From positions 57,195,501 to 57,259,500 of the forward strand of contig CM074862.1 of the NCBI GenBank assembly GCA_037501455.1: a stretch of DNA of 64,000 bases, written 5' to 3'. The first letter of the stretch is position 1; each line of letters opens with the position of its first letter. The notes beneath the pieces were generated by a model. That model saw only the letters and a program-made list of their open reading frames with translations. It searched no databases and was not told the origin of the DNA. This DNA comes from Lantana camara (Eukaryota > Streptophyta > Magnoliopsida > Lamiales > Verbenaceae). Positions 3,920-55,845 of this stretch are shown here, piece after piece. The translations under genes were made by a program, and so were the position numbers.

Positions 3920-6419
3920 TTTACCAAGTCAAAAATGTTCCAGCTTTTCATATCAATACATTATAATCTCCGAACATAAATAACAAGTAACTATAATAAC
4001 AGTTCTAAAGAGACAATAAACAATATGCACCGTGATTGAGTCAACTACATGGACTGGACTTGACACGACTCGACTCCCGCCTAGCGTGCACCTGCAAGAA
4101 CCTGAAAGGTGGAGGCGTCAGTCTATGGAAGACTGAGTGAGGGGCATAGATATATATAAGCTCAAATAACATGCAAGTGATAATCTCGGGTAAGGTTTTG
4201 TAACTAAAGTAATAATAACAATAATATAAGTGCAAGAATATCAAGGACTCGCCCGAGATTACAACTATCAGGTTTAACACGATAATCATGGTTATTTTAA
4301 CTATCAGTGGCCCTGGCGAGCCGCGTGTACGATCTCCAACCAACCTTGACAGTGAACAAGAATTACTCTTTCATTGAATTAGGTTATCACACAAGTCATT
4401 ATAGTGCACACGATCAATAACACGAAATTCTCTTTTCTCCAATGGTAATGGGTTTGCAAGGCCCGAACCACCCACGATATCACGTTGCATGTCGGGAACA
4501 TGACTCCCACGTACGGGACTCCTTCCTCCACCAAACGTCCTGGTGGATTCAGGGGGCATCCCCACGGTTTGAGAGAGGTGTGTGAGTTACCCGTCAGCCC
4601 TATGCATTCCCGGTTGGCTCAAACACTCACCCTCGGGCCCATAATACACGATACACGATACACGATAATTCGCCAAACACGATCACGGTAACAAGATAAC
4701 ACGATACACGGTTTGCTTGTCATGAACACGATTAGTTTCAAGACACATGATTTACTTTCAAAGAACACAACTTGTAACACGATACATGGCTTGCTTGTAA
4801 TACGATACATGACTTGCTTTTCATGAACATGACTTGAGAGTTTAAAAACACTTGTAACTATATATTTACCGTTTGGCCCAAAAGTCACATAAGGTTAGAC
4901 GGGTTCTAAGTAATTAGCAAGTAAACCTCACCTGACAGGCGACACAATGACTCATGGATACGTGGACGTGCTCTATTGATCACAATCTCCGCCTCGGGAG
5001 AGTAACTGGACAAGAAACAGGACATGGTGTACTTGTGAGACAATAACTCATCAATGTTACCAAATAGGACGCATGGCATGACTATACGACAAGATGATAT
5101 GCATTCACGAATGTAGCATGATATATTCATATTATGACATGTAAATGATCATATAATAGCATGTTGGGATCAATTAAGGCATTGGAATTAAATTCCAAAA
5201 TCACATTTTTATGCAGAAAGTTTCTGCACTTCCAGGAGCCTGGGAACGGCCGTTCCAGGTTTTAGTACAAAGTGGGAAGGGCCGTTCCCCCTCTCCCGAA
5301 ACTGCTCCCGAAGATGGGAACGGCCGTTCCAGCTTGTAAGCCAAAATGGGAACGGTCGTTCCCGACCTCTCCGCCATATATATTATTCAAACTATGGGAA
5401 CGGCCGTTCCCTATTTACAAAGGGAATGGGAAGGGTCGTTCCCGTTACGCAGGAAGAACAGAGAGCAGAGCAAAAGAACAGGGGAGGCATGAAATACATT
5501 CAAATCACTTCAAAACACTTATAATTTCCTTCCAACTGCTATAATTCATGAAAAGGAATACGTATGCACGCTTATAATACAATAAAACCAATATAATCAC
5601 TTCTATAACTCATGGATCATCAAGATTTCAAGATTAAACCTCATGAACAAATATATCATCAACTCCGTAATTCTCAAGAATTCATGCCTCAATTCAAGTT
5701 AAAACCTTAGAATCATGCTTCTAGCATCAAGTAATCAAGTTAACAAATGTAAATACTAACCCTAGTTCCATATATAAATTTCAAGAAATCATATTTATAT
5801 CCATGGCTACCTTGAAAGAGAGAGATGAGATGAGAAGAGATGATGATGATGATGAAAGAGCTTCGAAGCTTATCAATTTCTCTAGAAAACTAGCTTGAAA
5901 TGATGAAATTCCTCTCCCTTCCATGGACGTTTAGGTTCGGTGGAGCAAGGAAGCAAACATATATGTGTTTTGATGAAGAATGAAATGAATGAGACAAGGA
6001 AGCAATTATATCACGTAATTCATTTCTTGATTTTGATGAAATCCATGAAATTGCAATTAAATCCTCCAAGAGTAATGAATCATGCAATTAAGGATGAAAG
6101 GATTAAAGAATGATCAATTTAGTCCAAGGAATGTTCATGCAATTTGGTCCACACATTTAGAATAATAATCAATTAAGGACAAATAAGCCACCAAGTCATG
6201 TTTGAAAATTAATTCACATAACAATTAAATTTAGTTTATACAATAATTCTCCAATTGATACATATTTCACTTATTTCCAAGTAAACATATTGAGTGGAAT
6301 TACCACAATTTATAATAAAACGTAGGAATTTAATAAGTAAAAGAATTAAATAAATCCTAACTCTCGAAAATCTCACACGTGTCGTACATACCTGGAAAGC
6401 CGAAAATTGGGGCATTACA
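3920..6419 (-). mobile_element. LTR fragment C, minus strand
   Basis: Read on the minus strand this LTR begins TGTAATGCCCC at 6419 and runs left to 3920, where B interrupts it. About 250 bp of its 3' end must lie left of B. It carries the stem-loop at 4119-4135, an acceptor-like TTGCAG|G (complement of 4091-4096), a donor-like TCAG|GTGAGGTT near 4920, a donor-like CAAG|GTAGCC near 5810, and a six-copy palindrome array at 5241-5443. It sits in the 3' LTR of D: the sequence from 6420 onward matches the D 5' LTR from about 13139. No coding region is supported. Confidence 0.72.
5241..5443. repeat. Six-copy palindrome array, unit GGGAACGGCCGTTCCC
   Basis: Units lie at 5241-5257, 5274-5289, 5316-5330, 5348-5363, 5396-5411 and 5428-5443. 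Each is a perfect or near-perfect inverted repeat; substitutions such as AAGGG or GGTCG occur but the flanking arms stay paired. Spacers between units are unrelated and AT-rich. The array takes the place in this LTR that other palindromes take in the related families. Confidence 0.9.
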
Positions 6420-6715: not shown

Positions 6716-9700
6716 CCACTGCCTGGAGTTCTGGACTCTAAGCAACCTTCTATGTGTTCATCCCACGCGGGTTAGCAACCCCCTGTCAGGAATTAGTTCA
6801 GAAAAGGACTTCAAGCAACAAGGGGTCTTCAATTATTGTAGGAGTAAACTCATCCTCGAAAGGAATCCAGTGTTAAGCAAGTAGCTCGTGTGGACTCGTG
6901 CAATAAGGGGGTCTAAAGGAGATTCAACCCTCACCGCTTGAATCCATTATGAACTTACTCTTGGAGTTCGGCTTAAAATGAGTTGGGAGTCAAAGACTTC
7001 CACTAACTCACAACCTCGAACCTAACCGGACTCTTCAATGCATCACGATCACGATTCAATGTTGGGATACTCAAACCTTCTTCAAGAAGTCAAGAGTCTT
7101 CATAGGCAGGTCATGGAGATCGTTGCTAGTCACGACCCTCGGCTTACCAAGGCCTAACCACTCAAAAATCTAAGCATGTAACAAGCAACAATGAAAGAAC
7201 CCCGTCTTTTGAGCAACAAGGAGAGAACCCCGTCTCTCACAAACAACAAGGAGAGAACCCCGTCTCTCGCAAAGAAAAAAAACCAAGGCAAGGGAGTCTC
7301 CAATACTCCCAAGAGCCACAACACAACCAAGAACAACACCCAAGTAAGAAATAGCAAAGAGTCAAGTACAAAGTTACACAAGAACCAAAAATAATATCAA
7401 TCACATCATTCATCACTCATGCAGAAGCAAATAATACAGTTAGGAATCAAAGTACATAGTAACAAAATTCATTTGAACTAAAACTGCACGTATGCATATT
7501 CCATGAATGCTTTATGTACCGTTCACCGTGGTAAGGAAACTTGAAGTTGGTAACTTTATTGCCCTGTGCATGGTTTGACTCAAAAGTTGGCTCGGTTCTT
7601 GACTTGTCTTTGATATCCTCAGTGTGCATCCGGTTGAGAAAAAGATACACCAGTTGATCCTATTCTTGATTTCATTCTGAAGCTTACCCCTTGATTACTT
7701 TCTTCAATTTGGTGAAGTCCTTGAAATACAAATAAACCATTAGAAATAATGGTCATGATCTTCTTTGATCTCTCTCCATCAACCTGTAAATTTCTCGTAG
7801 TATGACCAACTCTTTAATTGCCCGAGCTCTTAATTATTCCATATACCTTCGGAACCTTTATCCTTTAGGTAAAGTTCAAATCTTCTATCTTTGCCAATGC
7901 TTGAATCTACAATAATCAAAAGTAACCACTCTCGATAACCTTTAAGTTTCATTCCAACATTAAGATAGTCACCACCATGGTTTCCTTTTTCACTAATTCT
8001 TTCCCATTTGAGTTAAGATCATCGGTTCCCGAATTTTAAATCTATCTTTTCATGGAGCCTTTCCCTTCTTTTATTTAAATGGTTCCTTCATCATCTTCGA
8101 GGCTTTAAGTGTGCCTTCAGTTCCAACCCATTTAATTCTTTAATCGAAGACAAAACCTCGTCGATGATTCTTGAGGTTTGACCTAAGCCCTTTAACCATT
8201 ACACTTTTTCGATTCTTCTCATTTCAAAGCTCCCAAGTCATCATGGAAAAACAACTGATGACTTATTAAGGATTCTATTTTGTTGTGTCGTCTGAACCCT
8301 TCCAAGAAGTATAATTTACCTTCGCTATTTCCATCCCGTAATAAAATACTTTGATCAGGTTTTTCTTCTTCGTATCTAACTTAAAATTTCAACTGAAGCT
8401 TCTTCTTAATTCCATCATCTTCAAGTTCTGAATTTTGTTCGTATAAATGTCGATCGAACCAATCTTTCCATTGCCCCATAGCAATCTTCAACCCGAATTT
8501 AGTAGCTTAACTTCTACTTTGAGGATTTAATCAATAGGACCGTTTCATTCCTTCTTCGAGCACAACCTTGAATTTAAATTCGTTTCTCGGTTATGCTCTC
8601 CCCCTTAAAAATTTTCTCCTTCTCAAGTCGAGCTTTATCTACCATTTTCTAATCAAAATTCTTGATCTCCTAGTAATGAACAATCCTTGTTAGCGATGGT
8701 GTTAGGTGTATTACTCACATTCACTTTGAAGGGGTTGATTTGGACAGCATCCCGAATTCTTTATTCTTCAAGGTTTCTCTTTTAATCCTCTAGAAATCTG
8801 GAATCAAATTTTCTTTTCTGATCCCATCTGAACATCCCGAAATTCGCTCCAACCTTTAATTTCTGAAATCCCATTCCTATCTTTGTTTCTGTTTGAATTC
8901 TATCACCCAAAACACCCTTGTTTACCTTGATTCAGAAAAAAAAAAACTTTGTTTGAGGTAGTAGTTGAAGTGTCATACGGGGAAGCATCCTAACAATTAA
9001 ACAGTAAAACGATGCATGCTGGGTGAAGATGGAAAATGTATGGAGCGCATAGTACACATCAAAGTATGTAACACCAAATCAATAGTTTAATAATTACAAT
9101 GTTGAAGTGCATAAAATAAGAATTTAAATAATTCAGTACAATGTATGTTGCACGTGTCATGAATGCAATGAACCTGGCACCATAATAGTGATTTAGCAAG
9201 ACATCCTGTCCTTTGATATCGATGTTGTAAGCATAGATTGTGAGGTTGAACATCATTCGGTCTTTGGCGATGCTTTCCAGTCCTTGTTCGCCTTCTCGTG
9301 TCACCGTCCGAGAGAATGATGGAACTTGAATTCTTTCAACTCTCCTTCTGTATCCTTGTTCCAAATCCACTCCTTGGTTCATGATAATCGTCGTATCAAT
9401 TAAGCTTTCTTGCTTAGCCCCATTGTGAATCTGATATTATCCTTGGAACTTCCCGATTTGGCCTTCTACTTTGATCACTTACTGCAACCTTGAAAGTCTC
9501 AATGATGAACTCAGAATAATTTGATCTTGCATCAAATATCGTCATAATTCGATGACTAAGAATTCCACGCCTATCACATTGCCTCGCGTATCCTTTAGGT
9601 TAGTAGTTTGCGTCCCCACGATGTACCTATGTTGATAATCTTCAAAATTCGTAGAGAAAATGAAATTTATAAACTTCTCCATGATCAAAGCTTTCTGTCT

Positions 9701-10388: not shown

Positions 10389-13300
10389 TGTAACGCCCGA
10401 GCGCGAGACGTCACATCCCCCGCAACATGACCCGACCCGTATATGAAATGGATTTCCACACACGTGCCAAATCATAGCGAACGGGGACAAACACACTAGC
10501 TAAAGCCAGACGGGACTAACCTATCACTTAAACCCCAACAGCAACAAGGTAACAGAATAGCGGAAGCAATCATTCATAATCCATATATTGAGCTATATGC
10601 TCTAGGTACCAGCATTTAAGTTCAAGGAAGATCAATACCAATACCAAATACATGTATGCTCGAATTCATATACAATATCCAAAATACCATAAAATAAGCA
10701 TATGAGTGTAAAGAAAGAAAGGCTAGACACTATGCAAGGCTCTCTCAGACTTATATCCCGCCTAGCATCCCTTCCTGCAAAAAGAACTGAAACAACTTCG
10801 GGTTCAGTCTTAGACAGACTGGTGGGTATAAAACAGGCTTAATATCATGATATAGCGGAATTTAAGCATATACATGCAAGCTATAATCCTTGTTGGAGGT
10901 TTTAGAATAATTAGCCCAAGCGGGAAGTAAAATACAACGAATAGGATTATAACAATTCATTTCATTCATTAGGTCCTTTGTGGCCCGACAGGAGGGCGTG
11001 CCTTATCTCCAACCAACACCTCGTGTAATTCATTAATCGTTCACTCATGCATTCATTCTTTCATGCACATTCATTAGATCATTCATTCGATCATTCATAT
11101 ACTCCTTCTTCCTCCGGTTAGGGACGGGTTTGCAAGGCCCGAACCCTCATTCATTGGTGCTAGAGGGGTGCATGAATCCCCAAAAGCTCGGTTCCCCTTC
11201 TTTCACTAATCTCGCCAAAACTTTTGGTAGGATATTCAAATTAAAGGCTTTACATTAAAACATTGACTCGTTGAAAACTCGATATATATCTTTATATAGT
11301 TTTGGCCAAAATCTTGCACATTAGGTGTTTTGGGTCATATCTTTAGCTAATAGAAGAAAAACCCACCTTTACACCTTACCAACCGAACCAAAAGGAAAAG
11401 AAGGCTTGAGGTAGCCAATGAACCCGGCACGTCTCCGCCCCGGAGAAAACTGTACAAAAAAGATAACACCGTGTACTCATGAGACTCGAGACTTAAATTG
11501 AACCATATAAGACGCACGGCAATGCATTAACATGTGATGACATGCATGATCAATAACAATGTGCTAATAAGATATTCATGTCACCATTAATGTCACTTAT
11601 TCACATAAACAAGCCTTTCATTCATTACACGAGTAAATCGTGTTCGTTCATTATTGTTCGTTCAATAGCATTCATTCGTTCAATATCCAATTCATAATAC
11701 ATTCTTACACATGTCTACAATGCCTATGCATCATTTAGAAGAGCAAGGAATTCACTAAACATATAGGGAGTGCATGGTCTTCAAGAAGAATCACATTATA
11801 TCACTTAAACGTTCATGCATATATACCACGTCTCTCCAATGAAAATCAAGCCATAACACTCATAAGCATCATCAAATAATCCATTAATATCATAAATACA
11901 AGTTTGAAGCACAAGAGATCAATTAAAACACATACGGATGTCAAGGGGGTGAAAGGAATGCAAGAAAATGGATTTTGGCGAAAGTTAACAGTTTTTCGGA
12001 AGTGAACAAGCTGTAAAGAATTGATCATATCCTAAGTTATAGAAGTTTGAATTGCGTTATGTTGATTGGAAATTAAACTAGACACAGATGTTTTCAATGG
12101 TATATGGCACGAATCATGATTCAAAGCGAGGTGAAAATGGCGTAGGTTTGAAGTTGGACCAATACAAACTTTCGACGAAGTAGCGACACCATTTTCAAAT
12201 GATCATATCTCACAAATGGAAAAAGACAATGAGGTGATTCCAATTGGAGGATGTTTTGGAATTCAAGAGGTTTCCATGGGTTCAAAAATCAGGTCAATCC
12301 GACTTTAAACGAAGTCAGCACGGGCGTGTCAATTTTGTCCTGGAAGCTGACACGGTAGTGTCGGAAATGAAAATTCCAACTCGAGGCCCTGACACGGCCG
12401 TGTTGGAAATGAATTGAAGTTGGACATGGCCGTGTTGGGTCATCTTCTCCGAAAATCCATGGCAAAGAAGCAAGGGTTCGAATAGAAATGTTCCAAAACC
12501 ACCCCAAGACATATCCGGACCAAATCAAGCACTAATATACATCAAAATACACCATAATTCATACATATATGCATATATTGTCATCAAATCCTCATTTATC
12601 CAACAAATCAATATTACATCTATATACATATATATACACATATACACATATATACATATATGCACACAAACTTTGTAAAAGATGGGGGAAAAGAAAGATT
12701 AGGGCTCTAGATTACACCCACAACACTTATTTCACCAATCAATCCAAGTTTCATACAAAACACCAAAATTTACACAAATTCATCATAATTCATACATATA
12801 TATATCTATATTCATTTATACACATTATACCTTGGAAAAAAAATGGAGCAGAAGAAGATGATGGAAGCTTGAACTCTTTTCTTGAATAAAGAAAATGAGC
12901 TTCAAATCCTTGTTTTCCTTGGTCTTGGAGAGTGGCTCGATTGGAAGAGGAAGGGAATGGAGGGTTTTCCTCTTTTTGTTGGGAAAGAAATGAAGAACAA
13001 ATGAGGGTTGTACATATACATACATATCGTGTAAACAAGGAAGAAAAGGAGGGAAAATTGCACTTTAGTCCCTCAACAATTTAGGTGTATCACTTAAGGC
13101 CCCAAGGTTTGATTGGTAAGTAATTGGGGTCCGACACAAATTTCGATTAAGTCCAAGGATTTCATATAATATCAAATACGTATACATTCAAAATAAAACA
13201 TCCATATTACAAGCAAATGTATTAAAACAAGTTTAATTAACATAATCACTTGAGTCTTCTAAGTCACATAATAGCAATTAGTTCACGAATTATTAAATTA

Positions 13301-13483: not shown

Positions 13484-16286
13484 TGTAACGCCCCGTTTTC
13501 AATTTATGCATTATGCGATAATTGATAATGTGCTTAATTGATATTATGCGATACTTTATATATTTTTCATAACATTAGATGCATAATATTTCCATGAGCT
13601 TTTATGAATTAATTGTTAACGTGACTAAATGCTCATATATGTAAATGTGTGGATTTAATTGCATGACTTAAATAGAGTTAGATGCTCATTTTACATGGAT
13701 TGAAACTTAATTGCATGCATTCATATAATGAAGGGACTTATGTGCAAAAAGTGATGAGTCATGCATATATGTGGAAGACTTTTGTAAATATCTCATCCAT
13801 CTCTTCCATTTCATTTCATTCTCATCAAATTAACCTCACACACACACACACACTAAATACCGATTTTTACACCATGGAAGAGAAGGAGGAGATTTCATCA
13901 TTCCAAGTTAATTTCAAGGAGGAATTGCATGAGTATGAGGCATCACCATCATCTCCATAGTTCCTTTCATCTTTCCATTCATTCTTTCAAGGTATATGTA
14001 TGAATTGCTTGAGCTTTTGATTATTTGGTTGAGTAGGGTTTGATGATTGATTGATGCTTTCATGCTTATTCATGATTAGAAGCATGTTTAGGTCCTTGTT
14101 TCTTCATTTCTTGCATGAAACTTGAAGTTATGTTGAAGTTGGGAATATATGATTTTATATGGGATTTTAATGATGAATTCTTGATGATTTGATGCATGTT
14201 TCCTTGGGTTATATGATGATTAATGGATATATATGATCATATACATGCTATATGTTGGTTTTCAAGTGTTTATTTGATGTAGTTTGGTGATTGAGTGGTT
14301 TGGGAGCCTTTTCCCGCGACCTCCCCTGTTTTCTTACCCTGTTTTTCGGTTACGAGCAGTGACACGGGGGTGTCGCTTTTCCCCTCTTCAGCGTGACACG
14401 GGGGTGTTCTTTGGGTTGAGTTTCTGTACCGTGACACGGGGGTGTCACGGCTTAGTGTATTTTGGTGACACGGGCGTGTCACCTTTTCCTGCATTTTGTC
14501 CAACTTCGAACCAACGCCATTTTCACCTCGGTTTGAATTAGAAAACGTTCCATATAGTGTTGGAAAGGTCTATGTGTCTACTTTCATTCCCAACGAGCAA
14601 AACTCAATTCCCACTTCTAGAATTTAAGATATTCCAGTTTTCCCACAACATGTACATTTCCAAAAATTGTCGGTTTTGGCCAAACTTCACCAAAACCTTT
14701 CTTATTGCATTCCTTTCACTCTCTTGGCTCCCATATGTGAATTATATGAGTTATATACTTGTTTAATTGATAAGTATGCTCCTACTTGATACTTCTTGGT
14801 ACTTAATTGCTCAAATGTATTGTGTGACTCCATGCCCTATATGAATTGAACTTGAAATGATTGAATGCTTTAAATATGTGACTCCTTGAGATTTAATTCA
14901 TCTTTTAAGTGTTAGTTGGTTCTCATATATGATTAAGTGCCACTTAATTGTTAATATGTATGGTTATTAAAGTGTTGGGATGGTTATTTATTTACATGAG
15001 CATTGCCGTGTGTCATACTTGGTCTCATATTGAGTCTTGTCCCACGAGTTCACGTTATTTCCTTTCTTGTCCAGTTTTTCTCCAGGGCAGAGATCATTGA
15101 TAATTGGGCACTTTCTAGTATCCTTGTCTTGTTCCGTCGCTCGTCAGGTGAGGTTTAAATTCTAGATATATAGAACCTTACAACCCTCATGTGATTTTCG
15201 GCCAAAACGTATCTATATATCTATAGTTTTCGAACCTTATGATTTTCAATTGATTTCACGGAATTGGATTGATTGATTGATTGATTGATTAACACATTGA
15301 TTGTTTTGGCGAGTAACTATTGTTCACGTTGGGCCCGAGGGTAGTGTATTGAGCCAACCGGGAAAGCAAGGGCTGACGGGTAAATCTTGCACTATCCTCA
15401 CCATTGTGGGATCACCTCTGAATCCACCAGGAGGTTTGGTGGAGGAAGAAATCCCGTGCGTGGGAGTCATGTTCCCGACGTACACCATGATTGGATGGCT
15501 GGGTCTTGCAAGCCCGCCATCACCCGGAAGAAGAAGGAGTTATTGATTGAAATTGCTAATTGTGCACTAAGTTCTATTGTTTGATCACTTAATTAATTAC
15601 GACTGAATTATTGTACACTGTCGGAGAAAGGTTGGAGATTTGCCCTCACTCGCCGGGCCACTGATTGAATTGAATTAAATTGAGTGTATTGTTAAATTGA
15701 TTAGTTATAATCTCGGGCGAGTTATCTTTTACTATTAAACTTATGTTGTTTCTATTTTATGAACCCTTACCCGAGATTATGGCTTGCATGTTACTTGCGC
15801 GAATATTTATTTATAAACCCCTCACTCAGTCTGTGGTAGACTGACACCTCACACTTTTCAGGTACTGTCAGTGGCGTGCTAGGCGCGAGTCCGAGTCGTG
15901 TCCAGTTGTCGAGTTGAGTCTAGCATTGCATTTTCATGTTCTTGGTATTTTTGGCTTATCATGTTAGTGGTTTTGGGTTATTTATACATGTACGATGTAT
16001 AGGAGATGATAATGTATTGATAAGTGTTGGTACCTACTATTATATAAATGTTGGTATCTATAAGTAAATACGTAAATATGGTACCTATAAGTATTGATTG
16101 CTATTGTTTCCGCTTTTATTGTTCTGAATTGTTTATTGGTAGTATTTGAGGGTACCCGCCTAGCTTTTGAGTTTTTTTATTGTCACCCGTTCGCCATGAG
16201 TCCGGTTCATATATGGACTACCCATTTCATGAGTGAGCTAGACTCATGGTGCGGGGGTGTGGCATCTCGGTGTTCCGGGTGTTACA
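13484..16286 (+). repeat. 5' LTR of intact LARD (2803 bp)
   Basis: Runs from TGTAACGCCCCG to GGGTGTTACA. Landmarks in order: a (CA)n run near 13837, a donor-like TTCAAG|GTATATG near 13989, the palindrome array 14361-14480, a CGCCATTTTCACCTCGG block near 14516, a TTTCTCCAGGGCAGAGA block near 15077, TCAG|GTGAGG near 15147, (GATT)n near 15266-15290, the stem-loop 15827-15843, an acceptor-like TTTTCAG|GT at 15861, and the terminal GTGCGGGGGTGTGG block. A short frame beginning in a CACCATGG context near 13872 is noted but unsupported. Confidence 0.95.
14361..14480. repeat. Four-copy palindrome array, unit GACACGGGGGTGTC
   Basis: Units at 14361-14374, 14395-14408, 14433-14446 (extended to CCGTGACAC...GTGTCACGG) and 14467-14480 (GACACGGGCGTGTC). 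Spacers are unrelated. Confidence 0.9.
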
Positions 16287-19300: not shown

Positions 19301-19642
19301 AGGTTAGAAATTTGATCGCGGGATGGAGATTGAGTAGTTATTGGGGGTACATACTGACATCAGGCATCCGAGGAATGGCATTTTGGTTAGAAGGGATTCT
19401 GATCAAAGAATCAAGTATTGAATCAAGTTACTGCCACTGAAGTTTTCTAAGACCATGGTGAACGGTACACCAAAACATGCATATCATGTGCAATGTATAT
19501 TTTATTATCACCACGTATGGTTCTTTGTATTTGTTAATTGCTTTTGTAAGACTAGTTGGTATTTGACTTCTCCTACTTGATCATTTCGTGAAGTTCTGTG
19601 TGAATGTTTAATTAAGCGTTCTCTTGAAATTCTTGCTTGTGT

Positions 19643-19775
19643 GAGAGTCGGGGTACTCTCCTTAGTTGTTAGAGAGACGGGGTTCTCTCATTTCTTGTTT
19701 GAGAGACAGGGTTCTCTCATTTCTTGTGGAGAAACGGGGCTCTCTCGTTACTTGTCTAAGAGACGGGGCTCTCTT
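19643..19775 (+). repeat. Hairpin minisatellite near LARD polypurine tract
   Basis: Five units begin at 19643, 19672, 19701, 19729 and 19758, a 28-29 bp period. Each has the form GAGAGACGGGGTTCTCTC with complementary GAGAG/CTCTC arms; the arms co-vary in the last unit (AAGAG/CTCTT). Confidence 0.9.
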
Positions 19776-19808
19776 GTTGCTTGTGTATCATTTTAACCTC
19801 GGCAGTGG

Positions 19809-19843
19809 ACCTGGGGACCAGGTCCTCTTAAGGGGGAGAGAGT
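19809..19843 (+). other. LARD palindrome and polypurine tract
   Basis: The palindrome ACCTGGGGACCAGGT (19809-19823) is followed by CTCTTAAGGGGGAGAGAGT directly against the 3' LTR. Confidence 0.9.
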
Positions 19844-22646
19844 TGTAACGCCCCGTTTTCAATTTATGCATTATGCGATAATTGATAATGTGCTTAATTG
19901 ATATTATGCGATACTTTATATATTTTTCATAACATTAGATGCATAATATTTCCATGAGCTTTTATGAATTAATTGTTAACGTGACTAAATGCTCATATAT
20001 GTAAATGTGTGGATTTAATTGCATGACTTAAATAGAGTTAGATGCTCATTTTACATGGATTGAAACTTAATTGCATGCATTCATATAATGAAGGCACTTT
20101 TGTGCAAAAAGTGATGAGTCATGCATATATGTGGAAGACTTTTGTAAATATCTCATTCATCTCTTCCATTTCATTTCATTCTCATCAAATTAACCTCACA
20201 CACACACACACACTAAATACCGATTTTTACACCATGGAAGAGAAGGAGGAGATTTCATCATTCCAAGTTAATTTCAAGGAGAAATTGCATGAGTATGAGG
20301 CATCACCATCATCTCCATAGTTCCTTTCATCTTTCCATTCATTCTTTCAAGGTATATGTATGAATTGCTTGAGCTTTTGATTATTTGGTTGAGTAGGGTT
20401 TGATGATTGATTGATGCTTTCATGCTTATTCATGATTAGAAGCATGTTTAGGTCCTTGTTTCTTCATTTCTTGCATGAAACTTGAAGTTATGTTGAAGTT
20501 GGGAATATATGATTTTATATGGGATTTTAATGATGAATTCTTGATGATTTGATGCATGTTTCCTTGGGTTATATGATGATTAATGGATATATATGATCAT
20601 ATACATGTTATATGTTGGTTTTCAAGTGTTTATTTGATGTAGTTTGGTGATTGAGTGGTTTGGGAGCCTTTTCCCGCGACCTCCCCTGTTTTCTTGCCCT
20701 GTTTTTCGGTTACGAGCAGTGACACGGGGGTGTCGCTTTTCCCCTCTTCAGCATGACACGGGGGTGTTCTTTGGGTTGAGTTTCTGTACCGTGACACGGG
20801 GGTGTCACGGCTTAGTGTATTTTGGTGACACGGGCGTGTCACCTTTTCCTGCATTTTGTCCAACTTCGAACCAACGCCATTTTCACCTCGGTTTGAATTA
20901 GAAAACGTGCCATATAGCGTTGGAAAGGTCTATGTGTCTACTTTCATTCCCAACAAGCAAAACTCAATTACCACTTCTAGAATTTAAGATATTCCAGTTT
21001 TCCCACAACATGTACATTTCCAAAAATTGTCGGTTTTGGCCAAACTTCACCAAAACCTTTCTTATTGCATTCCTTTCACTCTCTTGGCTCCCATATGTGA
21101 ATTATATGAGTTATATACTTGTTTAATTGATAAGTATGCTCCTACTTGATACTTCTTGGTACTTAATTGCTCAAATGTATTGTGTGACTCCATGCCCTAT
21201 ATGAATTGAACTTGAAATGATTGAATGCTTTAAATATGTGACTCCTTGAGATTTATTTCATCTTTTAAGTGTTAGTTGGTTCTCATATATGATTAAGTGC
21301 CACTTAATTGTTAATATGTATGGTTATTAAAGTGTTGGGATGGTTATTTATTTACATGAGCATTGCCGTGCGTCATACTTGGTCTCATATTGAGTCTTGT
21401 CCCACGAGTTCACGTTATTTCCTTTCTTGTCCAGTTTTTCTCCAGGGCAGAGATCATTGATCGTTGGGCACTTTCTAGTATCCTTGTCTTGTTCCGTCGC
21501 TCGTCAGGTGAGGTTTAAATTCTAGATATATAGAACCTTACAACCCTCATGTGATTTTCGGCCAAAACGTATCTATATATCTATAGTTTTCGAACCTTAT
21601 GATTTTCAATTGATTTCACGGAATTGGATTGATTGATTGATTGATTGATTAACGCATTGATTGTTTTGGCGAGTAACTATTGTTCACGTTGGGCCCGAGG
21701 GTAGTGTATTGAGCCAACCGGGAAAGCAAGGGCTGACGGGTAACTCTTGCACTATCCTCACCATTGTGGGATCACCTCTGAATCCACCAGGAGGTTTGGT
21801 GGAGGAAGAAATCCCGTGCGTGGGAGTCATGTTCCCGACGTACACCATGATTGGATGGCTGGGTCTTGCAAGCCCGCCATCACCCGGAGGAAGAAGGAGT
21901 TATTGATTGAAATTGCTAATTGTGCACTAAGTTCTATTGCTTGATCACTTAATTAATTACGACTGAATTATTGTACACTGTCGGAGAAAGGTTGGAGATT
22001 TGCCCTCACTCGCCGGGCCACTGATTGAATTGAATTAAATTGAGTGTATTGTTAAATTGATTAGTTGTAATCTCGGGCGAGTTATCTTTTACTATTAAAC
22101 TTATGTTGTTTCTATTTTATGAACCCTTACCCGAGATTATGGCTTGCATGTTACTTGCGTGAATATTTATTTATAAACCCCTCACTCAGTCTGTGGTAGA
22201 CTGACACCTCACACTTTTCAGGTACTGTCAGTGGCGTGCTAGGCGGGAGTCCGAGTCGTGTCCAGTTGTCGAGTTGAGTCTAGCATTGCATTTTCATGTT
22301 CTTGGTATTTTTGGCTTATCATGTTAGTGGTTTTGGGTTATTTATACATGTACGATGTATAGGAGATGATAATGTATTGATAAGTGTTGGTACCTACTAT
22401 TATATAAATGTTGGTATCTATAAGTAAATACGTAAATATGGTACCTATAAGTATTGATTGCTATTGCTTCCGCTTTTATTGTTCTGAATTGTTTATTGGT
22501 AGTATTTGAGGGTACCCGCCTAGCTTTTGAGTTTTTTTATTGTCACCCGTTCGCCATGAGTCCGGTTCATATATGGACTACCCATTTCATGAGTGAGCTA
22601 GACTCATGGTGCGGGGGTGTGGCATCTCGGCGTTCCGGGTGTTACA
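19844..22646 (+). repeat. 3' LTR of intact LARD (2803 bp)
   Basis: Same length and landmarks as the 5' LTR at +6360. Differences are scattered substitutions, for example at 20095, 20100, 20157, 20282, 20910 and 21463. Confidence 0.95.
20721..20840. repeat. Palindrome array, 3' LTR copy
   Basis: Four GACACGGGGGTGTC-type units at the same LTR position as 14361-14480. The arms of all units are unchanged; the base before unit 2 differs (GCGT to GCAT). Confidence 0.9.
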
Positions 22647-24295: not shown

Positions 24296-24431
24296 GAGAG
24301 AACCCCGTCCCTCGCAAGCAACAAGGAGAGAACCCCATCTCTCGAACAACAATGAGAGAACCCCGTCTCCCAAAAGCAGCAAAGAGAGAACCCCATCTCT
24401 CAAAAGTAGCAAAGAGAGAACCCGTTCTCTC
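24296..24431 (-). repeat. Hairpin minisatellite near F polypurine tract
   Basis: Five units at 24296, 24326, 24354, 24384 and 24414, of the form GAGAGAACCCCATCTCTC, period 28-30 bp. Confidence 0.88.
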
Positions 24432-31021: not shown

Positions 31022-34000
31022 TGACACCCCGTTTCTCTGACAATCCAAGTATGATGTTAAGAGAGGGTTTTCGATGTTTTATTTTCTCTTTAGATTTAAT
31101 TTATATGTTGATTTATTCGTTTAAGTGATTTATATACCCTAACTTTTTAAATTTCACGTTTAACTTCCGTATTTAATTTCTTTAACTTGAATTTAATTCC
31201 CGAACTACGTTATTGTGTGATATATTTGAATTATATGTCTATGAACTCATTTACGTGTTTATTTTTTTCGTTTTACTTGTTCGTTTTGGTCGAAGATTAT
31301 TTCTTGTTTTGGGGGACTCGAGGGCCTAACGGAGCTTTACCGCACCTTGTGTTTCGGAGGCCACAACTTGAGATCGAGAATTCAAATTCAAATTCTAGAA
31401 GTGGCGTTGGACTTGTAATGAGGTTTGAGAGCTGCGGAACCAAGACTTGTATTTTTCAGAGCCCGTTCAGGCCTTCGAAATGTTTCCGAACCGAGCCACA
31501 TGTGCAGATTCGCCACCTTGGAGTATTTTGGCGCATAACTCTTTCAATATTCAACCATTTGACTTGATTCTTAGCCCCACTTAACCCCAACTCTGAACTC
31601 TATCACTCCACTCTCTCTCTATTTTGTTCAGCAAACTTGAACCCTCATGTCCATTCCTGTCACTATTCACCAATAAAGAGTTTGGAGCTCAAATCTTCAT
31701 TTATCTCAACCAAATTCAAAGGGTAAGTGTATGATCGTTATCTCTATGCTTATGTGGTCTTTTTTCATCCATAAATTTCAGATTTTAATCGAAGTTTTAT
31801 ATGGTTTTGAGGCACGATATGAATAGTAAGGGTTTACATGTACATATGAAATTATATGCCAACTCTTGTGTTATTTGTTGAATTCAAGCTAGATACATGA
31901 TCATATGAGCCTCAATAATGGTTATATGAACAGAAATTAGTTGGTGGTTACATGGTTGTTGAGTTACCATGAGTGAACCTTACATTTCTTGAAGTTTGAG
32001 ATGCATATATGTTGCTCCATTTCATCCGATTTCTTGGCCGGTTGTTGTATGCTTTTGTGTGAAAAATTTGTTGTTGTTTTGTGCTTCATTTCATGCCTAT
32101 ATGTGCTGCTTTGTTGCCCCTTCCTCTTCCTCCTTGAGCAGCCCTATTCCTGCTCTTTTTCCCACTGTCAGCCTCTCCCCGGGCGGGGATATTTTGAGAA
32201 GAAAGTGTCCCCGGGCGGGGATACTCTCTGCAAAAACTTTCTGGACTGTTTTCCCCGAGTGGGGAACTTTTGCCATGTGATTTCCCCGGCCGGGTAGCCC
32301 TTTATCCGAGCTGCGTTTGACCTGATTTTCAGACACGATCAACTTGTTTGAGTCTAGAAAACTTTCCAATTGGAATCACCTTAAAATTCATTTTGGTTTG
32401 GGAGATATAACTGTTGTATTTTGGTGTCGCCACTTCGCCTAAATTCTGTACTCGTTCAACTTCAGACCTCCGCCATTTTTGGATCCCTTTGAACCGTGAT
32501 TTGTTCCATATATCATTGGAAATCCCTATGTGTCTAGTTTGATTTCCAGGAAACAAAACGTAATTCCCAGTTCTCAAACAGAAGTTATGCCTGATTTCCT
32601 ACAGCTTGTTCGTTTCAGTAAAACTGTCAGCTTTGGCCTATTTTCACTCGGAGCCCTATTTTGCATTTCTATTCTGTTTTTCCCGTATATTCTCATCCCA
32701 ATTGTGATCCTAATATGTTAATATATTGTAATATGTTATGTTTCATTAATTATTTTAAGTTTATGACCTTGTTTGCTAAGTGTAATTTTGACGTGAATTC
32801 ATGATAGATATATGAATGTTTAACGTTTTCTTTCAACTCTTGCTTTCTTGTTGCACTTTAAGATTATGAATGCATATTGTATGCTATAATATAACACGTT
32901 ATGAGTTTATTTAATATGTTATGAGTTTAATTCTTGAATTCGTTATGTGATATCTTGTTCCAATATGTCTAAATATGAATCTATATCATATGCATTGCAT
33001 CCATTTGCATCCCTATGCCTCCTCGTTCATCTAATTTGTTCATGATCAAATCTAAGTCTTTATATGTTTTTTTGTCTCAGATTTGAGTTCGGGAGGTGTC
33101 GCATCCACCATTTAGTTTCTTCTTGGTCGTCAACGCTCCTCCATGAGCACTTTTGGTAAAAGGTGAGGTTTTTTCTTTCTTTTAGTTAATGCGACCTACA
33201 ACCCCATGTGCTCGCTTTCAAGCCCGCATGCGAATATACTATTATATTTATATAATAGATAAATGTTTATATAATATGTTTATGACCATGTCAAATAATT
33301 ACGGGTTTTGAAAACTATAAGTATATGCCTATGGGAGCTTATGTTTTGCAACGAGGCTATGCTCGAAACCGTGTGTGTTCATGCTAGTTATGGATTAGGA
33401 TAACATACAGAGGTACGTCTATAGCATATGCTAAGTTGCAAGGTAAGGTATGCTCCGATGAGGTACATAAGTTATGATTTTGATAAGTTAGTGTGTAGCG
33501 AATTATGGTATGTTATATTTGTAATGGTTTGCATTTGGGGCCCCCCAAGACGTGGGTAAGGGAGACCCGGGATGACCATGGGGTCGCCGGTTATGACCCC
33601 TGTGCACGCTCTCATTTGAAGTACTCACGTGCAACTCGTGGAGGTTGAGGAGGCGTGGTGCTTTGAGCCCTCGGTGGATAACCGGGGAAGGCACAACGTG
33701 GATTAGCTACCCTATGTGTTTTTTGCAATGGAAATGTGTAGTGAGGGTTTGCTCCCCGAGCTACATGGATGTTGGGGATGGATTGTTTATGATTTCTGCT
33801 TTCCGTTTTGTATTTATGTTAAGAATTGGGGAGATTGTGTAAGACCCATACTCGCCGGGTATAAGAATTCGATAACATATGTTGATTATGAAATGGGATA
33901 GGACCTTTCTTTTAAGCTATGTTCGATTTTGATATGAATATGTACAACTTTGATCCGAAAATAGTTTTAGTATGCAAAACCCCATCTCGGTTGATAGTCT

Positions 34001-34053: not shown

Positions 34054-36455
34054 TGTAACGCCCCGACGAGGGCATCCATGCCTATCCCGCGCTACGGACC
34101 TAGCTTGTCTATAGAATTGCTATCCATATACCCACCGAGACTGAAGCAAGCGGTGACAAACGGACAACCTATCTCTCTCCAAGAAAACTTCAACCCCGAA
34201 ACCTTCTTGGAGTCTTAGTAGTATTGTCCATAGTGGGAACTTTGGATAAGGACATCCGTCGGACCTTGCCTTCCCAAAATATCTCTCACCTCCATCCCCG
34301 AGGTCAAATTCGATTGCCCCAAGCAAGCGTCCTTGCAAGGTACATCATAACCTCGCTACACAACTCACGCATACATAATATCCAAATAAAAGTTCCAAAG
34401 GCATTTTGGGTACTTATCCTGTATACGAAAACTCAAGTTCTACTTGTAAACCATCACCATAAGCGAATATCCAATATATGAGCATAGCTCACAAAACTTG
34501 GCTTATTAAGCCTATATATAAATACTTTTGAAAACGGGAGTTTAAAACAAAAAAAATATGAAAGGCTATAGGTGTCCACATTTTTGAAAACATTTTACAT
34601 ATATATAACTCCTCACCTTTACCAAGAACTTCGAAGGCCAACCACGACAACTACTCAACCGGAGGCTCACCACCTAACAAGACAAACGTACTATGAAAGG
34701 TGAGACTCGACTCGAAACCCAACAAGACGACGCACGGCTTTGACATGAATGCGAATATGCTAATGATGTGCAAGGAATGTTCGACAATGGTATATATTGG
34801 CAATTATGATCACATTGCATCATATAAGTCATGTATCAAGTTCTCAAGTCAGTAATAAGCGACCTATGCGTCATACTTAACACAAATTAATTAAACGCAT
34901 AACTTAGTCAATTAAGATAACTTAAGCATGGTTGAGGTATAAAGATCATAATATAAGGTATGCATGAGATGTCACAACATATAACGAGCTCACAATTCAT
35001 TATAGACGTAATATAAATAAGTATGGAACAAACGAGAGGCAAAACAAGTGAAACGAATCAAGAAAACAAGGCTGGGGACAATCCATGACCATGGATTTTC
35101 CTTCACAAAAAATCCACACTCGCGGTTTGGGTCCAGAAGCTACTGCCTGAAATCCACCCCCATGGATTTTTACACAGCAAAAATCCACCATAGTGGATTC
35201 TGCCCAGAACTTAAAAAAAACGTGACAACAACTTAACTCGACGGGAAAGAGTTCAAAACACCTCAAAACATGAAATTAAGCTTCCAAAACTACAAATAAG
35301 CATCATAAATCATGAAGTTACATAATAAAGCACTTACGAACATATAAACATCAAGAAACCTAGCAATTCATACAAGAACTTCATCTTCTACAAGTTTCAT
35401 GAAAGCTTCAAGCATAAAAATGGTGAAATCAACAATCATTGCAAGAAATTGTAGGAAATCTATCACATTCTCCATAAAAACACATAAGGAACAAGAATCC
35501 ATCATCATATCAAGCTAAAACATGCGAGAACATAGACATGCAAGAATTCTTCATGAGAGCTTCAAAGGTCAACAACGGTGGATTTCACATAAGGGCATAA
35601 AAACATGAAATTCTTTCATCAAATCATTCCTAGCATCATAAGAAACATATTTCCATCATAAAATTCGGATTTAATCCAACTAACATGAACCCTAGATTCA
35701 CATTCAAGTTCAAAACCTTCAAGAACACAAACCCATGAAAAGAGCACACAAATCTTACCTTGGGAGCTGGAAATCGAAGAGGGAATCTTGTCCTCTAATC
35801 TCGAACTCCCAGCTTTGATCTTCTCTCTTGACTCTTGAAGATGGCATGAAGTGTTCTTGGGAGAATATGAAGAGTTTAATCTTGAAATAACGTAAGAATG
35901 GGTTTTGGAGTGTTAAATCTGATTTTGTAAATTGGGTCAGCCATATAGGGTCTTGGAGCGGGTCATACGGGTCGGGTTTAGGTGAAATTGGGGCTCAAAT
36001 TGGGCTTAATTCGAAATTGGGTCGCAGGTCAACAATTAAAGGCTTAAAAGGTTGACTTTTCGTAAAATGGCCATAACTTCTTCGTCCGAACTCCAAATCG
36101 AGCGATTCAAGAACCCACGAACTCGTAATAAAATTATCTAGTCAATCTCATTATGTTCTAACCAGTTCCAGGCTTGGAAAATAAATTTACCATTTAGTCC
36201 CTAAATTATGCTTTAATGTCCACATAAGCACATTATTTCGTTAAACTATAAAACATGATCTCAACGCTCAAAAATAGCAATACAGGCATATAATTATTAT
36301 GTCATAAAGCCACATATATCGTACACTTAATATATTTCACTTATGCACTAATCCATTATCAAATTAAGGCATAATTCCACATAAATCATGCAAGGAAAGG
36401 TAAATCGTGTACTCTCGTACCAAACCTTACCTTGACCGAGATGCGGGGCACCACA
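34054..36455 (-). repeat. K 3' LTR (2402 bp)
   Basis: The minus strand starts TGTGGTGCCCCG at 36455 and ends GGGGCGTTACA at 34054. Contains a donor-like CCAAG|GTAAGATTTG near 35757, a second one AAAG|GTGAGG near 34612, and the AATCCAC palindrome array. I do not find the CAGTC/GACTG stem-loop here, so K belongs to a more distant family. Confidence 0.85.
35080..35199. repeat. Four-copy palindrome array in K, unit AATCCA...TGGATT
   Basis: Units at 35080-35097, 35109-35127 (decayed), 35150-35169 and 35181-35199, each of AAATCCACC.CATGGATTT form. Confidence 0.82.
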
Positions 36456-36497: not shown

Positions 36498-36930
36498 GGA
36501 AAATAACTCTGGGTGAAAACTGCGCATCTTCTCTTTCGTCTCCCAAAATGCTTCTTCAGCTCGATATCTCCCCCAAAGAACCTTAACCAAAGGAGTTAGC
36601 TGGTTCCTTATTCCCTAGATGTTCCTATCAAAAATCTTCCCCGGTTGCCCAATTGTTAATTCCAGATCCAATTGTGCCTCTCTCGTCGGATTAGTCTCCA
36701 TCTGCTCTCCGAAATACTTCCTCAATCCGTTCACAGCTCCAAGAAGCTCGATAGATCTCGGGTTAAGGTCACCGCCCTTAATGATTTGTGGGAAACTCCT
36801 TCTTATTGTTGCCTCTAAGAAGACTTGGTCACCGTCTTCGAATTCAAAGTTTTTCCTCCTTTGTTTGGCATAACTGTGTTGCCATTCGTGTACACCTTCC
36901 CTATATGGTTTTAACCTTTCAAACTTGTTG
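36498..36930 (-). pseudogene. Integrase C-terminus and chromodomain-like remnant of K
   Basis: In one frame, interrupted by a TAG at 36615-36617, the translation shows HSYAKQRRKNFEFEDGDQVF, matching the usual YAD.RR..LEF..GD.VFL entry to the gypsy integrase C-terminal domain. An LNPRSIELLGAV segment stands where family members have LNPRYIGPFEI. After GLRKYF and KIFDR comes LVKVLWGRYRAEEAFWE and then MRSFHPELF, the form of a plant chromovirus group II chromodomain tail. The upstream integrase core, RNase H and RT are absent; the frame runs left into the non-coding, minisatellite-bearing region. The polypurine tract follows immediately, the right place for the end of pol. This remnant is the best evidence that K descends from a Ty3/gypsy chromovirus, perhaps Tekay-like. 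Confidence 0.72.
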
Positions 36931-40160: not shown

Positions 40161-40529
40161 TGTTGGAAAACACGAATCAGAAAGCAGCGGAATTTAAAAA
40201 ATTTTCCCAACAAAAGGACCTTGGACTCGCAATCGTGTAACCAAATTCGTAGAGACAAAAAACTTACTTTTCTTTTGTTCTTTCTTGAAGCGTTTCAAGC
40301 CACCCAAGAATGCTCTTCTCGTGGCTTGATCCCCTCTCCTTGGTAAAGCTCGAATCTTCAAACTTCTAACTTGAAGTCTCTAGAGAAAGTCCACCAACTT
40401 GATCACAATCTAACTAGTAAGGATGCTAGTTCTCTAGTTAGTGTTTAGGCTTAACCTAGGGTTTATTTGATCTTGGAGAAAGGAAGGTGTTCAACACATG
40501 AACCAAAAGAATTGCCAATTCGCTCTAAA

Positions 40530-40555
40530 GGGGAGCATGAGCTCCCCTATATATA
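40530..40555 (-). promoter_or_regulatory. L1 3' LTR TATA box and start-proximal hairpin
   Basis: TATATATA (40548-40555) is followed on the element strand by the inverted repeat GGGGAGC-TCAT-GCTCCCC (40530-40547). This fits a core promoter about 1.55 kb into the LTR, leaving roughly 370 bp for R plus U5. Confidence 0.6.
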
Positions 40556-40906
40556 GGAAAGGGAGAGGGACGGCCGAACCTATTCCTTGTTGGACAAAGA
40601 TTTGGTTCCTCTCTCTCCTATTACTTGATCATCAAGTATTTTCCAACTTTGACTTTGAATTCTAATTCAAGTCAACTTTTAAGAGAGCTAAAAATATCCA
40701 AACTATTTTTGGATAATTTTATACTTTATTTATTATAAAATAAATAACTTATTTTTATCTAATTAATTAATTCGTAATTAATTAACTAGATTATTTTCTC
40801 CAAAATAAGACTTTCTTTTTAATTCAAAATTAAACCAAAGTCTATTAAATAATTAACACATTTAATTATTTAATACATACATATATAATATATATATATA
40901 TATATT

Positions 40907-40964
40907 CACACGTGTGTGACACGTGTCACTCACGTGAGCCACACGTGTGATTTCACACGTGTGG
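40907..40964. promoter_or_regulatory. G-box/ABRE-like cluster in L1 3' LTR
   Basis: Five ACGT cores in palindromic contexts (CACACGTGTG, GACACGTGTC, CTCACGTGAG, CACACGTGTG twice), about 350 bp upstream of the TATA box. Confidence 0.65.
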
Positions 40965-42733: not shown

Positions 42734-42822
42734 ATACTAATTGCATAAGCCACATCCGGTCGAGTACATAACATTGCATACATTATGCTACCTATTGCTG
42801 ACGCATAAGGTGTATGAGTCAT

Positions 42823-44616: not shown

Positions 44617-44745
44617 AGTTCATTTAAAAGGAACTTTGGACATTTTTCCTTTGAGACAGGATTCGCAAGAAGTTAACTCTTTGAGATCATTTTTAGAGAA
44701 TGATCCTAATGTGTTTATCTTGCTAATTCTGTTTTTGGAAATGTG

Positions 44746-47760: not shown

Positions 47761-47881
47761 GACACCCCCGTGTCACCCTCCAAACCTATACCGAGACACC
47801 CCCGTGCCTCGGTACAGCAACTCCAGGCCACGCTGCACCCCCGTTCCTCGATGGAACGGACAGAAGTGGCACGCCCGTGAC
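47761..47881. repeat. Four-copy palindrome array in G, unit GACACCCCCGTGTC
   Basis: Units at 47761-47774, 47795-47808, 47834-47847 (decayed) and 47868-47881. The half-site GACAC/GTGTC is shared with D and the intact LARD. Confidence 0.82.
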
Positions 47882-52433: not shown

Positions 52434-52435
52434 CT

Positions 52436-54663: not shown

Positions 54664-55845
54664 TGTAACGCCCCTACGAGGGCATCCACGCCTATCCCGC
54701 GATACGGGCCTAGCTTGTATATAGAATTGCTATCTATATACCCGCCGAGACCGAAGCAAGCGGTGACAAACGGACAACCTAGCTCTCTCCAAGAAAACTT
54801 CAACCCCGAAACCTCCTCGGAGTCTTAGTACTCTCGTCCACAGTGGGAACTTTGGATAAGGACATCCGTCGGCCCTTGCCTTCCCAGAATATCTCTCACC
54901 TCCATCCCCGAGCTCAAATTCAATTTCCCCAAGCAAGCGTCCTTGCGAGGTACATCGTAACCTCACTACACAACTCACACATACATAATATCCAAATAAA
55001 AGTTCCAAAGGCATTTTGGGTACTTATCCCATATACGAAAAATAAAGTTCTACTTGTAAACCATTACCATAAGCGAATATCCAATATACGAGCATAGCTC
55101 ACAAAACTTGGCTTATTAAGCCTACATATATATACGTTTGAAAACGGGAGTTTAAAACCAATAAATATGAAAGGCTATAGGTGTCCACAGTTTTGAAAAC
55201 AATTTACAAATATATAACTCCTCACCTTTACCAAGAACTTCGAAGGCCAACAACAAGCAACTACTACTCAACCGGAGGCTCACAACCTAACAAGACAAAC
55301 GTACTATGAAAGGTGAGACTCGACTCGAAACCCAACAAGATGACGCACGACTTTGACATGAATGCGAATATGCTAATGATGTGCGAGGAATGTTCGACGA
55401 TGGTATATATTGGCAATTATGATCACATTGCATCATATAAGTCATGTATCAAGTTCTCAAGTCATATGTAATAAGCGACCTATGAGTCATACTTAACACA
55501 ATTTAATTAAACGCATAACTTAGTCAATTAAGATAACTTAAGCATGATGGAGGTATAAAGATCATAATATAAGGTATGCATGAGATGTCACAACATATAA
55601 CGAGGTCACAATACATTAGAGACATAAAATAAATAAGTAAGGAACAAACGAGAGGCAAAACAAGTGAAACGAATCAAGAAAACAAGGCTGGGGATAATCC
55701 ATGACCGTAGAGTTTCCTTCACAAAAAATCCACCCTCACGGATTTGGTCCCGAAACTACTTCCTGAAATCCACCCCCATGGATTTTTACACAGCAAAAAT
55801 CCACCCTATTGGATTCTGCCCAGAACTTAAAAAAAACGTGACAGC
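54664..55845 (-). repeat. K 5' LTR, interrupted by copia L2
   Basis: Matches 34054-35230 with several percent divergence, including the palindrome array, and stops at CGTGACAGC where L2 begins. ACAGC (55841-55845) is the likely L2 target duplication. Confidence 0.87.
55696..55815. repeat. K palindrome array, 5' LTR copy
   Basis: Four AATCCACC...GGATT-type units. The first has lost its right arm (ACCGTAGAGTTT). Confidence 0.75.

Follow-up and report, generated by a model that had tools for sequence, protein, structure and literature searches.

Several families of LTR (long terminal repeat) retrotransposons in Lantana camara carry arrays of short, nearly equal palindromes, or dyads, which are spaced as doublets and are probably paired DNA-binding sites. 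We examined a window of 64,000 nucleotides (GenBank assembly GCA_037501455.1, contig CM074862.1, positions 57,195,501 to 57,259,500 of the forward strand), taken from a 1.27 Gb assembly of this plant that was also searched. The window contains an intact element of the large retrotransposon derivative (LARD) type and array-bearing LTRs of five other families, here called C, D, G, J, and K. An initial annotation, made from the letters of the window, had reported eight arrays of 4–6 short palindromes in these LTRs. All eight are present where it had placed them, with four units in the LARD, D, J, G, and K arrays and six in C. Spacings below are center to center, in bp, and in the sense of the LTR.

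5243..5442, minus strand: C array, six GGAAC-core-GTTCC dyads of the GGAACGGCCGTTCC type, spacings 32/48/32/42/32
12317..12436, minus strand: D array, four GACAC-core-GTGTC dyads of the GACACGGCCGTGTC type, spacings 32/42/32
13484..16286, plus strand: LARD 5' LTR, which starts with TGTAACGCCCCG and ends with GTTACA, with the array ~880 bp from its start; TGGTATCAGAGC, which we take to be a primer-binding-like site, adjoins its end
14361..14480, plus strand: array of the LARD 5' LTR, four dyads of the GACACGGGGGTGTC type, spacings 34/38/34
19844..22646, plus strand: LARD 3' LTR
20721..20840, plus strand: array of the LARD 3' LTR, the second copy of the 5' array, four dyads of the GACACGGGGGTGTC type
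32176..32296, plus strand: J array, four TCCCC-core-GGGGA dyads of the TCCCCGGGCGGGGA type, spacings 32/44/31
35080..35199, minus strand: K1 array, four AATCCA..TGGATT dyads, spacings 31/40/31
47761..47881, minus strand: G array, four units (one of them poor), of the GACACGGGGGTGTC type in LTR sense, as in LARD, spacings 34/39/34
55696..55815, minus strand: K2 array, four partly decayed units, homologous to K1

The initial annotation had missed that the spacings are symmetric (short/long/short). Within each window array, the odd-numbered spacings are all 31–34 bp and are equal to within 1 bp, where the centers of K2 and of some D, G, and K units had been called by eye before the spacings were calculated.

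The arrays are real and go beyond chance. A strict detector called three arrays in the window, namely C, J, and D (the last with three of its units), whereas 100 dinucleotide shuffles gave a mean of 0.01 and a maximum of 1. LARD, G, and K escape this detector because some of their units are below its threshold. For a sample of LTRs beyond the window, we used the junction AAGGGGGAGAG-N0-6-TGTAACGCCCCG, which is a tract like the polypurine tract (PPT) followed by the start of the LTR. This junction occurs 4491 times in the genome (2332 + 2159), and the backward pattern does not occur. The sample is 70 of 100 listed junction places, all on contig C1 (loci L078–L147), with 1.5 kb of the LTR for the first 30 loci and ~3.4 kb for the other 40. 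Strong arrays were found in the first 2.5 kb of 31 of the 70 LTRs and in 0 of 700 shuffles. (Among the 31, the arrays of L122 and L140 are TGCATGCA-like repeats of another kind; L122 also has GACAC units.) Using seven arm patterns, at least three units of one type were found in 27 of the 40 long LTRs (0 of 200 shuffles) and at least two units in 33 (3 of 200 shuffles). The comparison with shuffled LTRs that the initial annotation had called for thus turned up no similar clusters (0 of 700 and 0 of 200). Our counts of arrays are likely to be low, because decayed units, which are present in some LTRs without a called array (L124 and L139), go uncalled and because several of the 1.5 kb loci probably end before the array.

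The doublet geometry of the window recurs across the sample. We considered all distances of up to 60 bp between units of the same type in 76 LTRs (70 sampled and 6 from the window), with at most one mismatch per unit and no filter on spacing. Of these 162 distances, 104 were at 31–34 bp and 54 were at 37–53 bp, with 3 at 15–30 bp and none at 35–36 bp. If two mismatches are allowed, then the peak remains at 31–34 bp (151 of 308), with 15 distances at 35 bp. Of the 44 arrays that have three or more spacings, 40 show an alternation of short and long ones (gaps of 67–79 bp were counted as long). A genome search that does not depend on LTR starts gave a similar picture: two GTCGCGSCCGCGAC units 20–50 bp apart had 1260 strand hits (613 + 647), versus 0 for the backward pattern. 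Among the matches listed (100 rows, or 96 places, 4 of which were listed on both strands), the spacings were 33 bp (46 rows), 34 bp (30), 41 bp (9), 42 bp (3), 46 bp (11), and 47 bp (1). Because 31–34 bp is about three helical turns, two dimers at this distance would lie on one face of the helix. The spacers had been described as unrelated, which is not always so: the inter-pair spacers are visibly homologous in L101-type sextets, and TTTTG recurs within pairs, where 24 of 85 spacers have it close to their start (shuffle mean of 1.7).

The units are also better conserved than their surroundings. Within arrays, units are 0.88 alike and spacers are 0.50 alike at the best offset. Between copies, the mean pairwise identity of 11 GGAAC-type copies was 0.917 for units, 0.723 for spacers, and 0.757 for flanks; for eight GACAC-GGCC copies, the values were 0.950, 0.801, and 0.792. 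When the mask of unit positions was slid along, the unit–spacer difference was reached at 2 of 483 positions (GGAAC) and at 0 of 495 positions (GACAC-GGCC). CG sites usually decay faster in silenced elements, and the array units contain CG sites. In the two families tested, these results uphold the earlier proposal that the arrays keep their form, namely several equal dyads.

Are the dyads sites in double-stranded DNA or hairpins in RNA? An RNA helix is expected to favor G.U pairs. On the sense strand of 49 LTRs, the arm pairs comprise 1062 Watson-Crick pairs, 31 G.U, 36 A.C, and 61 others, so that G.U is not in excess over A.C (p = 0.63). In LTR sense, most cores of G and L144 read GGGG, those of L108 and of L121 are CCCC-type in three of the four units, and L121 matches the G LTR, without inversion, on both sides of its array. 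The lack of a G.U excess and the occurrence of cores both ways round favor a double-stranded DNA site over an RNA hairpin. Pairing kept through G.U and a fixed orientation of the loop, as expected of RNA hairpins, were both lacking in the LTR array, and the element-specific recognition of RNA hairpins that had been envisaged is not supported by these data. A narrower idea that the window had suggested, recognition of a G-rich RNA loop on the sense strand, was ruled out by the CCCC-type cores of L108 and L121 together with the absence of a G.U preference. As a separate observation, the CCCC cores of L108 and L121, set beside the GGGG cores of the related G and L144, look as if single units had flipped. 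Also, in several types, pairing runs one or two bases past the 14-mer (this was seen without a shuffle control).

About seven arm types recur among the LTRs. CGGCCG or a near variant is the commonest core of the GGAAC, GACAC-GGCC, GTCGC, and TACCC types, and the GACAC-GGGG and TCCAC types are without it. Arm type is uncoupled from the LTR backbone. For example, the LARD LTR, L125, and L131 have 2.3–2.4 kb of summed alignment at ~76% identity, on both sides of the array, and their units are GACAC-GGGG, TACCC, and CAAAC, respectively; similarly, L124 (GTCGC) shares its backbone with several GGAAC LTRs. Conversely, in six of the eight classes, one or more pairs of LTRs lack any backbone alignment on the plus strand at E = 1e-5. 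Such pairs make up 5 of 10 for GTCGC, 3 of 6 for TACCC, 1 of 1 for TCCAC, 12 of 55 for GACAC-GGGG, 3 of 36 for GACAC-GGCC, 2 of 120 for GGAAC, 0 of 1 for CAAAC, and 0 of 1 for CGAAC, where some LTRs were only 1.5 kb deep, which makes an alignment less likely to be detected. (Arrays were masked with margins of 60–70 bp, which limits how closely breakpoints can be placed.) Either cassette exchange or parallel change of the units may be responsible.

These comparisons refine several statements of the initial annotation. It had listed a different palindrome for each family. The dyad does differ at matching positions in related LTRs, but a private palindrome for every family is ruled out, because the minus-strand G array reads GACACGGGGGTGTC in LTR sense, which is the LARD unit, and the number of distinct palindromes is accordingly smaller than had been listed. 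It had also stated that the flanks of D, J, and LARD align while their palindromes do not; within the window, this holds for one side of the array only, and with further LTRs it holds for both sides. As for a rapidly evolving half-site, the arms do differ between related LTRs, but the repertoire is limited to about seven recurring types, and given this repertoire and the unalignable backbones, exchange or convergence fits as well as fast drift does. The second refuting observation that it had named, arms that mutate independently of each other, is partly borne out: 128 of the 1190 arm pairs are not Watson-Crick, and GGAAC-type units share a mismatch that stays uncompensated in most copies.

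Which elements carry the arrays? All eight of the open frames upstream of sampled LTRs matched SH3_Tf2-1 above the cut-off, and two of them matched Integrase_H2C2. Chromo was found in four of the eight frames at E below 0.001, with two of these (L129 and L132) over the Pfam cut-off. An array was called in seven of the eight LTRs (L101, L102, L104, L128, L129, L132, and L137), and L091 had none within 1.5 kb. These integrase SH3 and chromodomain frames show that the carriers include Ty3/gypsy chromoviruses, presumably of the Tekay lineage. For these eight frames, the SH3_Tf2-1 matches rule out a copia or Sirevirus carrier. Beside the array LTRs of the window, no pol domain was found in the open reading frames (ORFs) examined, and neither a CCHC ORF (38582–39721, zinc knuckle only) nor a 173-amino-acid piece (36618–37136) had homologs at E = 0.001.

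Copia-type elements are present in the window as well (40161–45504, 49587–54400, and 55846–63417, with RVT_2, rve, and gag domains). One of them is split by the G element, and copia elements lie within or beside K. The strict detector found no dyad array in the LTRs of these copia elements, and a listing of chains in them, made without shuffles as a control, gave only AT-rich, low-scoring chains near 53010 and 56414.

The arrays may lie within a leader intron, as judged from splice-like signals around them. The signal for LARD is:

13986..13997, plus strand: 5' splice-donor-like TTCAAG/GTATAT, 372 bp upstream of the LARD array, with a score that is reached by 6% of shuffles

Donor-like sequences are found ~300–650 bp upstream of many arrays, with a mean best score of 8.8 (versus 6.6 for shuffles) when scored with donor frequencies. 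No more than 5% of shuffles reach the score for 24 of 49 arrays, and 32% do so for the C array. Downstream of the array, CAG/GTGAG is present in C, LARD, and G and not in D, J, or K. Across 13986–15150 and the equivalent parts of other array LTRs, we noticed the splice-like signals AAG/GTA.., TCTCCAG/GG, and CAG/GTGAGG. TATA-like words were listed upstream of arrays. In rice Retrosat2, whose LTR is 3.2 kb long, U3 is described at 1–244 and R at 245–2266 (PMC3485330).

We have moderate confidence that the array is a switchable cis-regulatory cassette of paired dyadic sites whose arm set specifies a dimeric factor. Its carrier would be a Ty3/gypsy chromovirus or a gene-less derivative of one, and the LTR of this carrier would hold two or three doublets, each made up of dyadic sites in double-stranded DNA. 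Each dyad would be bound by a dimeric DNA-binding factor, and two dimers 31–34 bp apart would bind cooperatively. The arms of 4–5 bp would decide which factor binds, around a center that is most often CGGCCG-like. If the arms of all units switched together, via cassette exchange or selection, then a different factor of the same family would come to recognize the LTR, and the geometry would be kept through the switch. We infer protein binding, its dimeric and cooperative mode, and a role in transcriptional control or in protection from silencing from these patterns. The reader of the dyads would more likely be a family of host transcription factors than a protein of the element. Compared with the original interpretation (a selected form whose half-site evolves quickly, as expected for element-specific recognition of RNA hairpins or for dyad-binding proteins), the maintained form and the differing dyads of related LTRs are supported, the RNA hairpins are not, and "quickly" is half right.

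Several observations weigh against a cassette of paired binding sites. Seven of the 40 long LTRs have fewer than two units of any type, and the seven arm patterns were derived from the same sample and the window, which makes the counts based on them descriptive apart from the shuffles. The alternation of spacings is broken in four arrays (L093, L094, L099, and L131), and these four include both of the CGAAC-type arrays. Also, the list of alternating arrays took decayed units only at 31–34 bp from another unit, which favors the pattern; the count of 162 distances is free of this bias. When 31 hand-picked GTCGC-type spacers from the list of GTCGCGSCCGCGAC pairs were compared, they fell into 5 loose clusters. 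The spacing may be partly inherited, because the L101-type spacers are homologous and because TTTTG is common to several types. The test of conservation used related copies, with shared ancestry, from two families only, and an uncompensated mismatch (GGAAC....CTTCC) is kept at fixed positions in most GGAAC-type copies. Finally, the comparison of G.U to A.C is a weak discriminator: even a second type of hairpin, which lies before the PPT (see below), gives only 13 versus 4 or 13 versus 5.

It is unlikely, in our view, that the arrays are a functionless by-product of copying, in which palindromes spread and became homogenized through template switching in the course of reverse transcription and through tandem duplication of doublets. 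The homologous inter-pair spacers of the L101 type would fit such a process and, as we understand strand switching at hairpins, so would the flips of the core. But duplication would carry the spacers along, and units are more alike than spacers both within arrays and between copies; furthermore, the arms differ in all units while the backbone is still alignable. Next in rank, and also unlikely, is that the reader is encoded by the elements, as a code for self-recognition or anti-silencing like that of VANC, with gene-less elements carrying the code of their autonomous partner. GACAC-GGGG arrays do occur in elements with words from the C terminus of integrase (L128, L137, and L142) and in elements without them (L144 and L122), the LTRs of these five all align to the L117 LTR, and VANC motifs are arrayed, family-dependent, and co-evolving with their proteins (PMC5735166). 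However, no extra element gene was found in the stretches examined (the ORFs of the window and 0.6–1.5 kb upstream of the sampled 3' LTRs), and an arm type that is shared by LTRs without backbone similarity suits a shared host factor as well. Least probable of all is that the dyads act as RNA hairpins (in packaging, in dimerization, or as a structure from which small RNAs arise, so that silencing is triggered or evaded): the donor-like signals suggest that many arrays may lie in transcribed LTR, some stems are extended (such as CCGTGACAC-GGGG-GTGTCACGG in LARD), and small RNAs are in excess on the palindrome clusters of maize Sireviruses (PMC10760457, PMC5311732), but G.U is not preferred over A.C, the asymmetric core reads GGGG in some LTRs and CCCC in others, and independent hairpins would not be expected to form strict doublets of 31–34 bp.

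There is a second kind of repeated dyad, before the 3' LTR, which is separate from the LTR array:

about 7190–7270, minus strand: pre-PPT hairpin array, GAGAGA-CGGGGY-TCTCTC-like
19640..19776, plus strand: LARD pre-PPT hairpin array, GAGAGA-CGGGGY-TCTCTC-like, with a period of 28–30 bp
24298..24430 (ends approximate), minus strand: pre-PPT hairpin array of another element, of the same kind as in LARD

At least two GAGACGGGGTTCTC-like units are present within 500 bp before the 3' LTR in 48 of the 70 sampled elements. Words from the integrase C terminus (at most 560 bp from the LTR) were found in none of these 48; another 17 elements have the words only and 5 have neither (Fisher p = 3e-12, where the words came from the same sample, the elements are related, and absence of the words is only a proxy for being non-autonomous). 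The hairpin pattern matched 174 times on the sense strand and never on the antisense strand. In a set of 108 distinct units, pair 4 is Watson-Crick in 103 (at most 97 in 300 arm shuffles) and pair 6 in 95 (at most 83). This strand bias and compensation suggest that the pre-PPT array forms an RNA hairpin. G.U pairs lend this weak support: at pairs 4–6, G.U exceeds A.C by 13 to 4 (p = 0.049) or, with a looser pattern, by 13 to 5 (p = 0.096), and at pair 7, A.C exceeds G.U by 16 to 9. (Pair 3 was left out of the G.U count because it is biased by the search pattern.) A further hairpin lies ~27 bp upstream of the start of the 3' LTR (19806–19826 in the window), before the PPT-like tract; it is found in several elements, in two versions (GGACCTGGGGACCAGGTCC or GAATCCGAGGACGGATTC), and it resembles the inverted repeat at the PPT of Sireviruses. 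Among the open-access papers listed, screened by title and the start of the abstract, we found no fitting description of hairpins in gene-less elements. As they are seen only without integrase words, the pre-PPT hairpins are a lead on how gene-less elements are recognized in trans.

A broader proposal, which we consider doubtful, is that chromovirus LTRs carry an exchangeable address code. The code would consist of doublets with fixed geometry whose arms are swapped together, from a small repertoire and independently of the backbone; families would switch readers much as operators change repressors and would thereby escape competition or silencing, and gene-less elements would add the 3' hairpin as a tag. 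If the dyads are operator-like, then the LTRs of the 4491 junctions would be a natural experiment in which binding-site cassettes have been swapped while the backbones can still be aligned. They would allow a direct test of how retrotransposon families change regulators, of whether arrays of palindromes in LTRs serve in transcription or draw silencing, and of how such arrays came to be present in copia Sireviruses as well as in gypsy chromoviruses.

Searches for the arrays in other collections gave little. Rfam had no match to the window at the gathering score, and a pattern scan of IMG/VR returned two contigs (55% GC) with a different repeat. A scan of viral contigs for the primer site gave 9 loci, none with an array, and the 54 loci from genome contigs are apparent plant contaminants in bacterial assemblies. 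Eight of the contigs are short, low in GC, and look like contamination from plant LTR retrotransposons (L016, L020, L023, L031, L034, L038, L054, and L059). Three of these (L023, L031, and L038) have AT-rich, TTATGCATAA-like dyads, partly at 33/35 bp, and belong to one family, which is a weak lead. Open-access papers that contain the literal palindrome words were unrelated among the matches listed, and a literature search for LBD factors found no papers.

Among known systems, Tnt1 box I, BII, and other promoter repeats of retrotransposons are alike in being repeated or symmetric cis-elements of LTRs, and we know of no family-wide doublet geometry in repeats of this type. Box I is named as symmetric (PMC2829016). 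On the idea that the arrays are integration targets, no more than a weak preference for short palindromes has been reported (PMC6911290). The target motifs of VANC proteins in VANDAL DNA transposons are closer: they are short, arrayed in non-coding and intronic parts, and family-dependent, and they change together as they evolve with their proteins. Unlike the dyads, they have one orientation and are not called palindromic in the main text, and their reader is known and is encoded by the element (PMC5735166).

The closest relatives are in Sireviruses. The initial annotation knew of no described feature of this kind, but 13 Sireviruses have repeated palindromic motifs in their LTRs ("RM boxes") that are element-specific, with a CGG-CCG core in 12 of the 13 (Bousios et al. 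2010, PMC2829016). Palindromic LTR arrays, as a kind, are therefore already known. The arrays in Lantana camara are likewise repeated palindromic LTR motifs that depend on the element, except that one type may occur in several families. As in our arrays, several copies of a short palindrome lie in the LTR, their sequence depends on the element, the flanks have diverged, and the palindrome-rich region is said to evolve rapidly. RM boxes were called specific to Sireviruses and absent from classic copia elements (PMC2829016). They make up a CpG island directly before a conserved TATA box. Sireviruses belong to Ty1/copia, whereas Ty3/gypsy chromoviruses are among the carriers in Lantana camara. 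The 3' LTRs of Sireviruses have at least 8 copies in 11 of 13 listed elements (Sorghum has 3 and Citrus has 4), most starting 200–400 bp into the LTR, whereas the arrays described here have 4–6 units as a rule, in fixed doublets, with the first unit 701–2418 bp into the LTR. The excerpts on RM boxes mention neither doublet spacing nor exchange of motifs between backbones, and our screen of the titles and abstract beginnings of the open-access papers listed found no description of the doublet geometry, the gypsy carrier, or the exchange. Overall, the array is a highly regular feature that many LTRs of this genome share and a variant of the palindromic LTR arrays, and its doublet geometry, its gypsy carrier, and its possible exchange between backbones are new to the literature that we searched.

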